From positions 1-64,000 of the forward strand of contig CABXEK010000002.1 of the NCBI GenBank assembly GCA_902511185.1: a stretch of 64,000 nt of DNA, given 5' to 3'. This document shows positions 59,325 through 64,000 of the stretch, piece after piece. The notes under the pieces are model-generated. The model worked only from the letters and a program-made list of their open reading frames with translations. It did no database searches and was not told where the DNA came from. Numbering within the stretch: the first letter of the stretch is position 1; each line of letters opens with the position of its first letter. The position numbers and the translations under genes were made by a program. The stretch is from an uncultured Pelagibacteraceae bacterium. Its GTDB lineage: Bacteria > Pseudomonadota > Alphaproteobacteria > Pelagibacterales > Pelagibacteraceae.

Positions 59325-61978
59325 AAAAACTTATTTTAAATTTTAAATCTAAAGATAGCAAAAATATTAAAAACTCTAAAAATTTTTTAGGAGGCAAAGG
59401 TGCTAATCTTTCTGAGATGGGCAGGATGGGGCTTCCAGTACCTCCTGGATTCACAATTTCAACTAAAGTATGTGAACTTTTTTATATAGATAAAAAAAGA
59501 TTAAATAAAAATTTAGTTGCTCAAATTAAAAAAGAATTAAAAGTTGTTGAAAAAGATGTTGGTAAAAGATTTGGTGATTTAAAAAACCCTTTACTTCTTT
59601 CTGTTAGATCAGGAGCAAGAGTATCAATGCCTGGAATGATGGATACAATTTTAAATCTTGGATTAAATGATAAAACTGTAAATGCATTAGCTTTAAAAAC
59701 TTCTAATGGTAGGTTTGCAAAAGATAGTTATAGAAGATTTATTCAAATGTATGGCAACGTTGTGATGGGAGTTGAAGGCTATCATTTTGAAGAATTAATT
59801 GAAAATTATAAACTTACTAAAGGAGTTCTGCTAGATACGGATCTAGATGAAAATGACTGGGATGGATTAATCGTAGATTTTAAAAGAACAGTTAAAGAAA
59901 AAGCTAAAAAAGATTTTCCTCAAGATGTTTATGCACAATTATTAGGAGCAATAAGTGCAGTATTCTTATCTTGGGAGAGTAATAGGGCAAAAGTTTATAG
60001 AAAATTAAATCAAATACCAGCTGAATGGGGAACAGCTGTAAATGTTCAATCTATGGTTTTTGGTAATATGGGAAATGATTGTGCAACTGGTGTTGTGTTT
60101 ACAAGAAATCCATCAGACGGATTAAATGAAATTTATGGTGAATATTTGATTAATGCACAGGGCGAGGATGTTGTTGCTGGTACCAGAACACCACAATACA
60201 TTACTAAAAAAGCGAGACTGCATGCAAAAGTTAAAGACCTCTCAATGGAAGAGGTTATGCCAAATGTTTACAAACAACTTAACAAAATTTTAAAAAAATT
60301 AGAAAAGCATTACAGAGATATGCAAGACGTTGAATTTACAGTTGAAAATAAAAAGTTATGGATGCTTCAAACAAGATCTGGAAAAAGAACGTCTAAGTCA
60401 GCAGTAAAGATTGCTGTTGACATGGTTAAAGAAAAATTAATTTCAAAAAAAGAAGCTGTTTTAAGAATTGACCCAAATTCTTTGGATACTTTGCTTCATC
60501 CCACGTTAGATGAAAAAAGTTCAATAAATGTTATAGCCAATGGTTTGCCAGCATCTCCAGGTGCAGCTAGTGGAAAAGTAGTTTTTACTTCGGAAGAAGC
60601 TGAAAGATTAACAGGAATGATGCAAGATACAATTTTAGTTAGAGTTGAGACTTCACCAGAGGATATTCAAGGTATGCATGCAGCTAAAGGAATTTTAACA
60701 GCCAGAGGAGGAATGACAAGTCATGCAGCAGTAGTTGCAAGAGGCATGGGTAGGCCGTGTGTTTCTGGTTCGAGCGAAATTGATATAAATTATGAAAGTA
60801 AATCATTTAAAACTTCTTCAATGGAAATAAAGGAAGGAGAAGTTATAACTATTGATGGATCCACAGGTAGAATTATTTCTGGAAGTGTTGCTACGGTTAA
60901 ACCAGAAATTTCAGGTGATTTTTCTAAATTAATGTTATGGGCAGATAGTTTTAGAAAATTAAAAATAAGAACAAATTCAGAAACTCCTAAAGATACAAAA
61001 ACAGCTAAAGATTTTGGTGCAGAGGGCATTGGTCTTTGTAGAACAGAACATATGTTTTTTGATGAAGAAAGAATTTTATCTGTTCGAGAAATGATTTTAT
61101 CAAAAAATAAAGAAGATAGAGCCAAAGCACTCAAAAAACTTTTACCACATCAAAAAAAAGATTTTGAAGAAATCTTCAAAATTATGGGTGGGCTACCAGT
61201 CACAGTTAGATTACTGGACCCTCCACTTCATGAGTTTTTACCCAGAAGCGAAAAAGAAATAAGTGAAGTCGCAAATGTGGTAGGTCTTTCAATAAAGGAA
61301 GTAGAGTCTAGAATAGAAGAGCTACATGAACAAAATCCAATGTTGGGTCATAGAGGGTGTAGACTTGGTATATCTTTCCCGGAAATTTATGAAATGCAAT
61401 GTAGAGCAATTTTTGAAGCATTAGCTGAGCTTAAAGATAAAAAAATTAAAATTGCATTTCCAGAAATTATGATCCCTTTAGTTTCAACAGAAGCAGAAAT
61501 AAAAATAATGAAAGATTTAGTAATTAATGTTGCAAATGAAGTACAAAAACAACAAAAAGTAAAAATAGAATTTATGGTTGGAACTATGATTGAGCTTCCA
61601 AGAGCAGCAATTAAAGCTAAGGAAATAGCCAAACATGCAGAATTTTTTAGTTTTGGTACAAATGATTTAACACAAACTACTTTTGGAATTAGCAGGGATG
61701 ATAGCGGAAAATTTTTAAATGATTATTTAGATAATAAAATTTTTTCAATTGATCCATTTGTTTCAATAGATGATGGAGTTGAAGATTTAATTAAAATTGC
61801 TGTCGAAAAAGGAAAAATTCAAAATAAAAAATTAAAACTTGGTATCTGTGGAGAGCATGGGGGTGACCCTAGAAGTATAGAGTTTTGTTCTAAAGTTGGT
61901 TTAAATTATGTTTCTTGTTCACCTTATAGAGTCCCTATTGCTAGATTGGCTGCTGCTCAAGCAGAACTTAAAAAATGA
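59321..61978 (+). CDS. ppdK: pyruvate, phosphate dikinase
   Basis: 'GGKGANLSEMGRMGLPVPPGFTIS', 'GMTSHAAVVARGMGRPCVSG', 'LGICGEHGGDPRSIEFC'. Confidence 0.98.
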   Translation: MKKLILNFKSKDSKNIKNSKNFLGGKGANLSEMGRMGLPVPPGFTISTKVCELFYIDKKRLNKNLVAQIKKELKVVEKDVGKRFGDLKNPLLLSVRSGARVSMPGMMDTILNLGLNDKTVNALALKTSNGRFAKDSYRRFIQMYGNVVMGVEGYHFEELIENYKLTKGVLLDTDLDENDWDGLIVDFKRTVKEKAKKDFPQDVYAQLLGAISAVFLSWESNRAKVYRKLNQIPAEWGTAVNVQSMVFGNMGNDCATGVVFTRNPSDGLNEIYGEYLINAQGEDVVAGTRTPQYITKKARLHAKVKDLSMEEVMPNVYKQLNKILKKLEKHYRDMQDVEFTVENKKLWMLQTRSGKRTSKSAVKIAVDMVKEKLISKKEAVLRIDPNSLDTLLHPTLDEKSSINVIANGLPASPGAASGKVVFTSEEAERLTGMMQDTILVRVETSPEDIQGMHAAKGILTARGGMTSHAAVVARGMGRPCVSGSSEIDINYESKSFKTSSMEIKEGEVITIDGSTGRIISGSVATVKPEISGDFSKLMLWADSFRKLKIRTNSETPKDTKTAKDFGAEGIGLCRTEHMFFDEERILSVREMILSKNKEDRAKALKKLLPHQKKDFEEIFKIMGGLPVTVRLLDPPLHEFLPRSEKEISEVANVVGLSIKEVESRIEELHEQNPMLGHRGCRLGISFPEIYEMQCRAIFEALAELKDKKIKIAFPEIMIPLVSTEAEIKIMKDLVINVANEVQKQQKVKIEFMVGTMIELPRAAIKAKEIAKHAEFFSFGTNDLTQTTFGISRDDSGKFLNDYLDNKIFSIDPFVSIDDGVEDLIKIAVEKGKIQNKKLKLGICGEHGGDPRSIEFCSKVGLNYVSCSPYRVPIARLAAAQAELKK

Positions 61979-62754
61979 TTAAAATAATAAAAAAAATAAG
62001 TAATAAATTTTTTAATGATTTTTATAAAATTGAATTATTTAGAACATTAATTTCTATTTTAAGGTTTGTATATTTTTATTATATAAGAAAAAAAATTAAT
62101 TTTTATATAGATCCTGATAAAAAAATTGACGATCATACTTTGGTAAAAAATTCAATTAGCAAATTTTCTGAAAATGAAACAGGAGACCAAACTGTTATAG
62201 CTCATAATATGCATTTTGTTGATAATTTTTTTAATTTAAAAAAGACTTATAAAAAATTTAATGGAAATAAAACTGCTGAAATTGGATATCCAATCCAATC
62301 AATGGATTTTATTGATTATGAAAATAACAAAGTTTTATCTGTTGGACCCAGAAATGAAGGGGAGCTTTTTTTCATTAAAAGTATGGGTTTTAGGTGGCAT
62401 AATATTTTTGCTTTAGACTTATTAAGCTATTCACCAAAAATTCAACTAGGAGACATTCACAAAACTAATTACGAAGAAAATACGTTTAATGTTATATTTT
62501 GTGGTTGGGTTTTGAGGTATAGCGATAATTTTGAAAAAATTTTAAAGGAAATGTTGAGAATTGCGAAAAATGGTGCGGTAATATCTATCGGGTTTACTTA
62601 TTATCCAGACAAATTTAGACAACTATATACAACAGATCAAATTATTCAGTTTTACAAAGAAAATATTTCTAATGTATATTTTAATTTTGATGCTTATAAA
62701 AAAAAAGAAGAAGGCAAAAGACACTCAATAATTATTTTAAAGATTAAAAAATAA
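61975..62754 (+). CDS. class I SAM-dependent methyltransferase-like protein
   Basis: 'VLSVGPRNEGELFFIKSMGF', 'NTFNVIFCGWVLRYSDNFEKILKEMLRIAKNGAVISIGFTYY'. Confidence 0.65.
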   Translation: MIKIIKKISNKFFNDFYKIELFRTLISILRFVYFYYIRKKINFYIDPDKKIDDHTLVKNSISKFSENETGDQTVIAHNMHFVDNFFNLKKTYKKFNGNKTAEIGYPIQSMDFIDYENNKVLSVGPRNEGELFFIKSMGFRWHNIFALDLLSYSPKIQLGDIHKTNYEENTFNVIFCGWVLRYSDNFEKILKEMLRIAKNGAVISIGFTYYPDKFRQLYTTDQIIQFYKENISNVYFNFDAYKKKEEGKRHSIIILKIKK

Positions 62755-62758
62755 GATT

Positions 62759-62820
62759 ATAGGATTGTGAAGGGGCGTTCTGTTACCCGGTGCCCCAGAC
62801 CGTGCTTTTATAATCCTTAT
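62759..62820 (-). ncRNA. orphan copy of the tmRNA coding-piece terminal hairpin domain
   Basis: + strand ataggattgtgaaGGGGCgttctgttacccggtGCCCCagaccgtgcttttataatccttat; core shared with 63174-63205, arms differ but remain complementary. Confidence 0.55.
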
Positions 62821-62864
62821 TTTGCAACGATGTTGAAATACATAAGGGTAGAAAATTACCAAAA

Positions 62865-62886
62865 ATTCCGCCACTAGGCCGCCAAA
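62865..62886. repeat. imperfect direct repeat copy A
   Basis: attccgccactaggccgccaaa; matches copy B at 63099-63120 apart from four positions. Confidence 0.55.
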
Positions 62887-62905
62887 GATATTAGTGCTAA
62901 AATAA

Positions 62906-63094
62906 GTGATGATTCGTAATTTAATAATAAGCAGTTTGTTCGTGCTATTAATTTTTCTAAATGCTTGTAATACAGTAACAGGAACGGTTGAAGGAACTGG
63001 CCGAGGAATTATTAAGGATGTTAAAACATTTCATCATTATAGCACATGTATCTTTACTGATACTCAATGTGGAAATTTAGACTTAAAAAAATGA
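62906..63094 (+). CDS. small entericidin-like lipoprotein
   Basis: 62 aa; signal peptide with lipobox 'LIFLNAC' then 'NTVTGTVEGTGRGIIKDV' like EcnA/EcnB. Confidence 0.7.
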   Translation: MMIRNLIISSLFVLLIFLNACNTVTGTVEGTGRGIIKDVKTFHHYSTCIFTDTQCGNLDLKK

Positions 63095-63098
63095 TTTA

Positions 63099-63120
63099 AT
63101 TTCACCACCAGTCCGCCAAA
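63099..63120. repeat. imperfect direct repeat copy B
   Basis: atttcaccaccagtccgccaaa. Confidence 0.55.
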
Positions 63121-63158
63121 AACTAACCTAAACGTTAATCAGTATTATAAATAAAAAG

Positions 63159-63425
63159 AAGTAGAAGGGTTGTAAGGGGCGTTCTGTTGCCAGGTGCCCC
63201 AAACCCCGTCTACTTAATCAACAAAGTTAATTAGGCAGCAAGTGCGTAACTTTCGTTAGCAATTATAAATTAGCCCGTTACGGTGGAACAATTCCGAACA
63301 AAAGAATAGCTTTTAGTCATCCGTCGAATCTAGTTCACCCCCATAAGTTGTAATGGTGGAGGTGGTGGGTACTGCCCCCACGTCCGCAATGGTTATTACG
63401 AAATTCGTTTATCGTCATAGTTGGA
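63159..63425 (-). ncRNA. ssrA: circularly permuted two-piece tmRNA (alphaproteobacterial type)
   Basis: Coding piece 5' end at 63342: GGGGGUGAACUAGAUUCGACGG; tag ORF 63260-63231 GCT AAC GAA AGT TAC GCA CTT GCT GCC TAA; acceptor piece ends at 63354 with ...GUGGG-GGCAGUA-CCCAC-CACCUCC-ACCA, pairing with GGGGGUG. Confidence 0.92.
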
Positions 63426-63475
63426 AAACCAACTTTATTAATATAAAAGCAATTACAAGAGATTCAATAAAAATC

Positions 63476-64000
63476 ATGAAATTAACTAAAGAACAGTCAC
63501 AAGAGATTAAAGAACAACAATCTCAACAATATCAAACAAAAAGAGTTACTGCTCCAGAGCTCGAAAAAATCCTATACGAAGCAATTCCAGCTTTAGACCA
63601 TGGTTTTGTAAGAGTCGTTGACTACATGGGGGATGATACATCAATAGTTCAATCAGCCAGAGTTTCTTATGGAAAAGGAACAAAAAAAGTTTCAACAGAC
63701 GCTGGTCTTATTAAATATTTAATGAGACATTGGCATAGCACTCCATTTGAAATGTGTGAAATTAAATACCACGTTAAACTTCCAATTTTTATTGCACGAC
63801 AATGGATTAGACATAGAACAGCAAATGTAAATGAATACTCAGCAAGATATTCAATTTTAGATAAAGAGTTTTATTTACCAAGCGCTGAAAATTTAGCAGC
63901 TCAATCTTCAAGTAACAGACAAGGTAGAGGAGATGTTTTAGAAGGCAAGCAAGCTAAAGAAGTTCTAGAACTTTTAAAAAATGACTCAGAAAGAACATAT
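63476..64000 (+). CDS. thyX: FAD-dependent thymidylate synthase ThyX (truncated by window end)
   Basis: ATG at 63476, open to the window end; '[12 protein letters not shown]', '[47 protein letters not shown]' (RHRxxxxNExSxRY). Confidence 0.97.

Follow-up and report, generated by a model that had tools for sequence, protein, structure and literature searches.

The tmRNA gene and its surroundings

Towards the end of the window (the whole 64,000-nucleotide stretch analysed), a permuted tmRNA gene lies on the minus strand next to thyX and is followed by a 404-bp unit bounded by two copies of the tmRNA 3' hairpin. The features of the locus are as follows:

63440-63467, minus strand: candidate sigma-70-like promoter of the tmRNA, TTGAAT-16-TATATT, in the conserved 5' extension of the Rfam model
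63354-63416, minus strand: acceptor piece (5' end approximate, taken as the start of the RF04321 match)
63381-63365, minus strand: T arm GTGGG-GGCAGTA-CCCAC, within the acceptor piece
63364-63358, minus strand: acceptor strand CACCTCC, within the acceptor piece
63357-63354, minus strand: A followed by CCA, end of the acceptor piece
63343-63353, minus strand: intervening spacer TTACAACTTAT (11 nt), of which removal is expected
63173-63342, minus strand: tmRNA coding piece GGGGGTGAACTAGATTCGACGG, with the 5' acceptor strand GGGGGTG (3' end approximate)
63231-63260, minus strand: tag frame GCTAACGAAAGTTACGCACTTGCTGCCTAA, reading ANESYALAA and the stop codon TAA
63176-63200, minus strand: 3' hairpin GGGGCACCTGGCAACAGAACGCCCC (25 nt), which is also core 1 (attachment-like site)
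63098-63120, minus strand: left arm-like repeat TTTGGCGGACTGGTGGTGAAATT
62906-63094, plus strand: cargo gene of the cassette, coding for a 62-aa lipoprotein-like protein
62864-62886, minus strand: right arm-like repeat TTTGGCGGCCTAGTGGCGGAATT
62772-62796, minus strand: core 2 GGGGCACCGGGTAACAGAACGCCCC, displaced copy of the tmRNA 3' hairpin
62772-63200, minus strand: 404-bp cassette (counted from core to core), with a counterpart behind pnp in locus L157
63476-64000, plus strand: thyX, with ATG 63476 as likely start (the start given by the ORF caller, 63353, overlaps the tmRNA)

The original prediction had proposed a permuted tmRNA on the minus strand, with the absence of an RF01849 match there taken as refuting. 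When positions 62000-64000 were scanned with cmscan, the minus strand from 63471 to 63173 matched RF01849 (alpha_tmRNA) over the full model length with 220.3 bits (E 5.9e-64), above the cut-off (gathering score) of 50 bits, and RF04321 (tmRNA_permuted) matched at 63416-63231 on the same strand (126.8 bits, E 6.5e-26), scores that lie well outside anything chance would give. ARAGORN, which uses a separate algorithm, also called a permuted tmRNA (tmRNA*) at 63448-63140 minus, with the predicted tag ANESYALAA that is obtained by direct reading of 63260-63231. All the elements that had been named (T arm, acceptor strand, CCA, spacer, coding piece and tag) sit at their claimed minus-strand positions, and the 11-nt length of the spacer (63353-63343) was confirmed in the sequence. 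Their order is T arm, acceptor strand, CCA, spacer, coding piece, tag and 3' hairpin. The window gene is the only full alpha_tmRNA match in the 55-contig genome. A mir-753 match at 63550-63600 (20 bits, E 0.81) was set aside as due to chance.

The acceptor piece lies upstream of the coding piece, and the acceptor stem bridges the spacer with seven pairs, among them the single G.U that had been predicted, which is the third pair (G3.U70). G3.U70 is well known as the pair by which alanyl-tRNA synthetase identifies its substrates. Among the 257 tmRNAs that were parsed from the retrieved loci (one entry seems spurious), the third acceptor pair is G.U without exception; pairs 4, 5 and 6 covary in the same set, both sides changing while the pairing is kept, which shows that selection maintains the stem between the two pieces. 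The CCA is present, and the resume codon and the tag frame ANESYALAA, with its hydrophobic end followed by the stop codon TAA, are intact. SmpB is encoded in the source genome (G000:C29, the gene being cut by a contig edge) and was found in 38 of the 41 genomes searched. As for the promoter-like TTGAAT-16-TATATT, its position coincides with a conserved part of the Rfam model, and the number of such sites here is no higher than in shuffles. These results support the identification of an alphaproteobacterial permuted two-piece tmRNA gene with the tag ANESYALAA; judging from the gene order and from published work on relatives, the mature RNA would consist of two pieces.

The short spacer and the tag, both of which the original prediction had singled out as specific observations, turned out to be commonplace, the spacer on comparison with those of other alphaproteobacteria, as it had proposed. 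Nearly all same-genus relatives (Pelagibacteraceae, SAR11) have a spacer of 11-16 nt, and order-mates one of 4-9 nt; across 85 alphaproteobacterial tmRNAs, surveyed in a non-random sample (the 30 best-scoring matches and 60 hand-picked others), the range is 2-333 nt with a median of 29, and 28 of the 85 have 16 nt or fewer; the idea that so short a spacer is new was rejected on these grounds. Among the tags of the genus, ANESYALAA is the most frequent, followed by ANDKFALAA, ANQKFALAA, ANESYAIAA and ANNKFALAA. The string ANESYALAA was found in no paper of the literature searched, which does not amount to novelty because tag lists sit in databases. Two alphaproteobacterial loci (L289 and L300, in genomes G194 and G116, respectively) have only 2 nt (AT) between the CCA and the coding piece, and locus L318 (G146:C5:288509-288849) holds a diverged alpha_tmRNA (72.8 bits) with a different T loop and the acceptor stem CCGGTCC/GGGCCGG, the second one of a genome in which a normal one is present as well.

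In "Ca. P. ubique", the tmRNA adjoins thyX and is overlapped by a misannotated thyX start, as published in 2009 (PMC2704228). Both the arrangement and the pitfall recur in the window: the ORF from 63353 (thyX) overlaps the tmRNA and, as had been predicted, ORF-based annotation misses the gene. Compared with RF01849, RF04321 and the tmRNA of "Ca. Pelagibacter ubique", the window tmRNA shares the permuted order, G3.U70, the GGCAGUA-type T loop, a tag ending in ALAA and the thyX neighbour, with no essential difference, its 11-nt spacer and its tag being ordinary for the genus. It is an ordinary member of its family: the analysis contributes one well-supported gene, which ORF callers overlap and overlook, and the two peculiarities that had been suggested for it disappear in the survey.

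The 404-bp cassette and the hairpin in related genomes

A second copy of the tmRNA 3' hairpin, at 62796-62772, had been overlooked in the original prediction. In the cmscan results, a weak second alpha_tmRNA match (27 bits) is present at 62931-62768 because the tmRNA 3' hairpin recurs there: repeat analysis located the hairpin of 63200-63176 again on the same strand, 404 bp downstream. The same analysis found an inner 23-nt repeat pair between the hairpins (63120-63098 and 62886-62864). Also between the two copies is the plus-strand ORF of 62 aa with a lipoprotein-like start, the product of which has no Pfam, PHROG or NCBIfam match. No integrase gene is found inside the 404-bp unit.

The same cassette is present at another locus of another SAR11 genome, AG-422-C07, where a unit behind pnp (L157) is 91% identical to it over 429 bp. 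Homologues of the cargo protein were found in two further loci, at other positions. At the window locus, the cassette has no matching empty site for comparison, a methyltransferase gene lying between core 2 and ppdK in this locus alone. This methyltransferase-like gene (Methyltransf_11; 61975-62754, plus strand) overlaps the ppdK stop codon and occurs in no other fetched tmRNA locus.

At least one hairpin copy is present in 164 of the 201 genomes of the genus and at least two in 70 (counted by hand from the table), while the reversed hairpin pattern, used as a control, occurs in none of the 201. Around the tmRNA in 148 distinct loci, for which 493 kb of upstream and 477 kb of downstream sequence were searched, 33 extra hairpin copies were found, all of them downstream and on the tmRNA strand, with none upstream or on the opposite strand. 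Seven genomes have the empty arrangement, in which the tmRNA is followed after about 40 bp by ppdK. In L105, 754 bp are inserted, and the ppdK-side sequence of the empty sites (L106, L140 and L198) resumes behind the second hairpin. As in tmRNA-specific islands, the gene end is intact and its 3' sequence recurs at the far boundary as a displaced direct repeat. This filled and empty site pattern is what a precise insertion at the hairpin would leave behind.

Hairpin copies elsewhere have different upstream genes and, at times, a common downstream sequence (L083 and L038; L045, L050 and L137). Many copies are located directly behind a stop codon. The core is found within a few nucleotides of the stop codon of an rnhA-like gene in L060, L073, L129, L175 and L188, and of that of pnp in L083, L098, L141 and L333. 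That the hairpin behind pnp is a native terminator used by the cassettes is unsupported: the core is missing there in most genomes, and pnp is therefore a second landing place and not a native feature. Arrays of three to five same-orientation hairpins within a few kb were observed in L051 (G028:C12, RIS_SAG_26) and L124 (RIS_SAG_59), with longer shared flanks than elsewhere; the G028 array lies away from the tmRNA.

Altogether, fifty core-to-core units were found, ranging from 159 bp to 6.3 kb. Their genes include those for small secreted or lipoprotein-like proteins, an HNH endonuclease, an inverse-autotransporter beta domain and a SHOCT protein, and the 6.3-kb unit resembles, on reading of its sequence, a type I restriction system. 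In many units, paired tandem short repeats are located some 40-65 nt inward of the left hairpin and some 60-90 nt ahead of the right hairpin (e.g. TTGGCACA.TAGTGGCACAATT or CTGTACGGGATATGTACGGGATT). These arm-like repeats match within a unit, with a mean score of 15.0 vs. 9.4 between units, a value reached in none of 20000 shuffles; scores of at least 20 make up 26% of the within-unit comparisons vs. 1.2% of those between units. One arm repeat is present in only three of the 201 genomes, each time beside a core. In several other units, the stop codon of a gene adjoins the core and matched arms are absent, so that insertion may take place by more than one mechanism.

Competing explanations and the agent of insertion

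The locus very probably contains a single SAR11 permuted ssrA gene, the 3' hairpin of which serves as a cassette insertion site, with one 404-bp cassette in place here. With less assurance, although still on balance the better guess, the SAR11 tmRNA 3' hairpin would be the core of widespread non-autonomous cassettes of about 0.16-6.3 kb that lack a recombinase, with unit-specific arms choosing the helper integrase, and with units that also land, and form arrays, elsewhere.

Among the rival explanations, the one that survives best, improbable as it is, considers the extra hairpins as dispersed terminators or REP-like repeats, a GC-rich hairpin having spread as a handy terminator. Many copies do lie just behind a stop codon, and the GGGGC/GCCCC stem could stop transcription, but all 33 copies near the tmRNA share orientation and side, the insertion in L105 falls exactly between two hairpin copies, the loop sequence is conserved even though a terminator would not need it, and the arm repeats are matched within units. 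It is very doubtful that the units represent integron cassettes in which the hairpin belongs to an attC-like site. Their small size (one or two genes), their same-orientation arrays and the stop codons found in some cases beside the site recall such cassettes, whereas no integrase gene was found beside the arrays, the core is the 3' end of the host tmRNA, most genes lie on the opposite strand and are flanked on each side by about 100 bp, and the arm repeats differ from unit to unit. Even less credit can be given to a local tandem duplication of the tmRNA 3' end without any mobile element: although the two copies are only 404 bp apart with no integrase, they have only the hairpin and the arms in common, the remainder being unrelated, the complete unit is also present at the unrelated pnp locus of another genome, and relatives have many different units at this position. 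Finally, it is scarcely conceivable that the window tmRNA is a decayed or non-functional copy, since, despite an RF01849 score slightly below that of most relatives (220 vs. about 218-244 bits), it is the sole full copy in the genome and its acceptor and T-arm pairs, tag frame and CCA are all intact.

Concerning the agent of insertion at the hairpin, the layout of core and arm-like repeats resembles that of a phage attachment site, which makes a tyrosine integrase the favoured candidate. Searches with PF00589 yielded roughly one gene of XerC size in each genome, together with a few larger integrases; no integrase was found beside the hairpin at any core examined, and no PF00589 gene was seen on any contig with a listed core. 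The window cassette could thus only be a non-autonomous form of a tyrosine-integrase-type island, with insertion presumably occurring in trans by a helper integrase. In genus g1, although XerC and XerD would both be expected, most genomes show only one tyrosine recombinase, of XerC size (about 325 aa).

In eight viral contigs (L084-L091), a complete permuted tmRNA is present with no thyX beside it; its 3' hairpin is that of SAR11, and its tag, where read, is ADENLALAA. Phage two-piece tmRNAs of the alphaproteobacterial type have already been published (PMC9004378). The possibility of a phage bearing the core as a bare attachment site was rejected, all eight core-bearing viral contigs holding the whole permuted tmRNA. 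The two commonest arm repeats are absent from viral contigs, and no annotated phage shows similarity to the window tmRNA. Pelagiphages are known to use tRNA-Leu for integration (PMC3861242).

From the above, we infer two separate roles for this gene. A single transcript would contain the acceptor piece first, then the 11-nt spacer and the coding piece; the spacer would be cut out by tRNA-processing enzymes, leaving two pieces held together by the 7-bp acceptor stem and further pairing. Once charged by alanyl-tRNA synthetase via the G3.U70 pair, the tmRNA would, with SmpB, free stalled ribosomes, appending the tag (A)ANESYALAA. Separately from ribosome rescue, the 25-nt 3' hairpin would act as an insertion site: upon entry of a small cassette, the tmRNA would keep an intact hairpin and the displaced copy would mark the far end, insertion being probably the work of a tyrosine integrase supplied from elsewhere, i.e. 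by a phage, a satellite or a larger island.

Comparison with known islands

If the cassette reading is true, it provides an exact sequence signature and a likely mechanism for the gain and swap of small genes in the streamlined SAR11 genomes, the swapped genes coding for secreted proteins, endonucleases and a restriction system, as well as a handle for finding the helper phage or island. In the literature searched, which covered few subscription journals, there is no report of tmRNA-directed, integrase-less SAR11 cassettes.

That tyrosine integrases insert DNA at tRNA and tmRNA genes and leave a displaced gene fragment is classical knowledge (PMC4383910). In Dehalococcoides, ssrA islands occur in tandem with 20-bp repeats, some of them without an integrase (PMC3146451). 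The SAR11 cassettes resemble these islands in their tandem insertion behind the tmRNA, each with a short direct repeat of its 3' end. However, the Dehalococcoides islands are far larger, often include an integration module and insert at the T-loop end of a standard tmRNA, whereas in SAR11 it is the 3' hairpin of the coding piece that is targeted, with no integrase found.

The passages compared from PMC10872708 describe an additive flexible genomic island in "Ca. Methylopumilus" that has repeats of the tRNA-Lys 3' end and takes inserts of 330 bp and more. As portrayed there, it shares with the SAR11 units a streamlined aquatic host, recurring repeats of an RNA gene 3' end (20 bp in that case) and mostly unknown proteins; its target is tRNA-Lys instead of tmRNA, and arm repeats are not described in those passages. 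The same passages present tycheposons as cargo elements that are also aimed at RNA genes in streamlined marine bacteria, although they are 4-200 kb long with a tyrosine recombinase, while the SAR11 units are minimal and without one. Like integron gene cassettes, the SAR11 units are short, hold one or two genes and line up in arrays with a common orientation; unlike them, they have a core derived from the host tmRNA and unit-specific arm repeats, with no integrase found alongside. As a whole, the SAR11 cassettes seem to be a small form, lacking an integrase, of an already known type of island.
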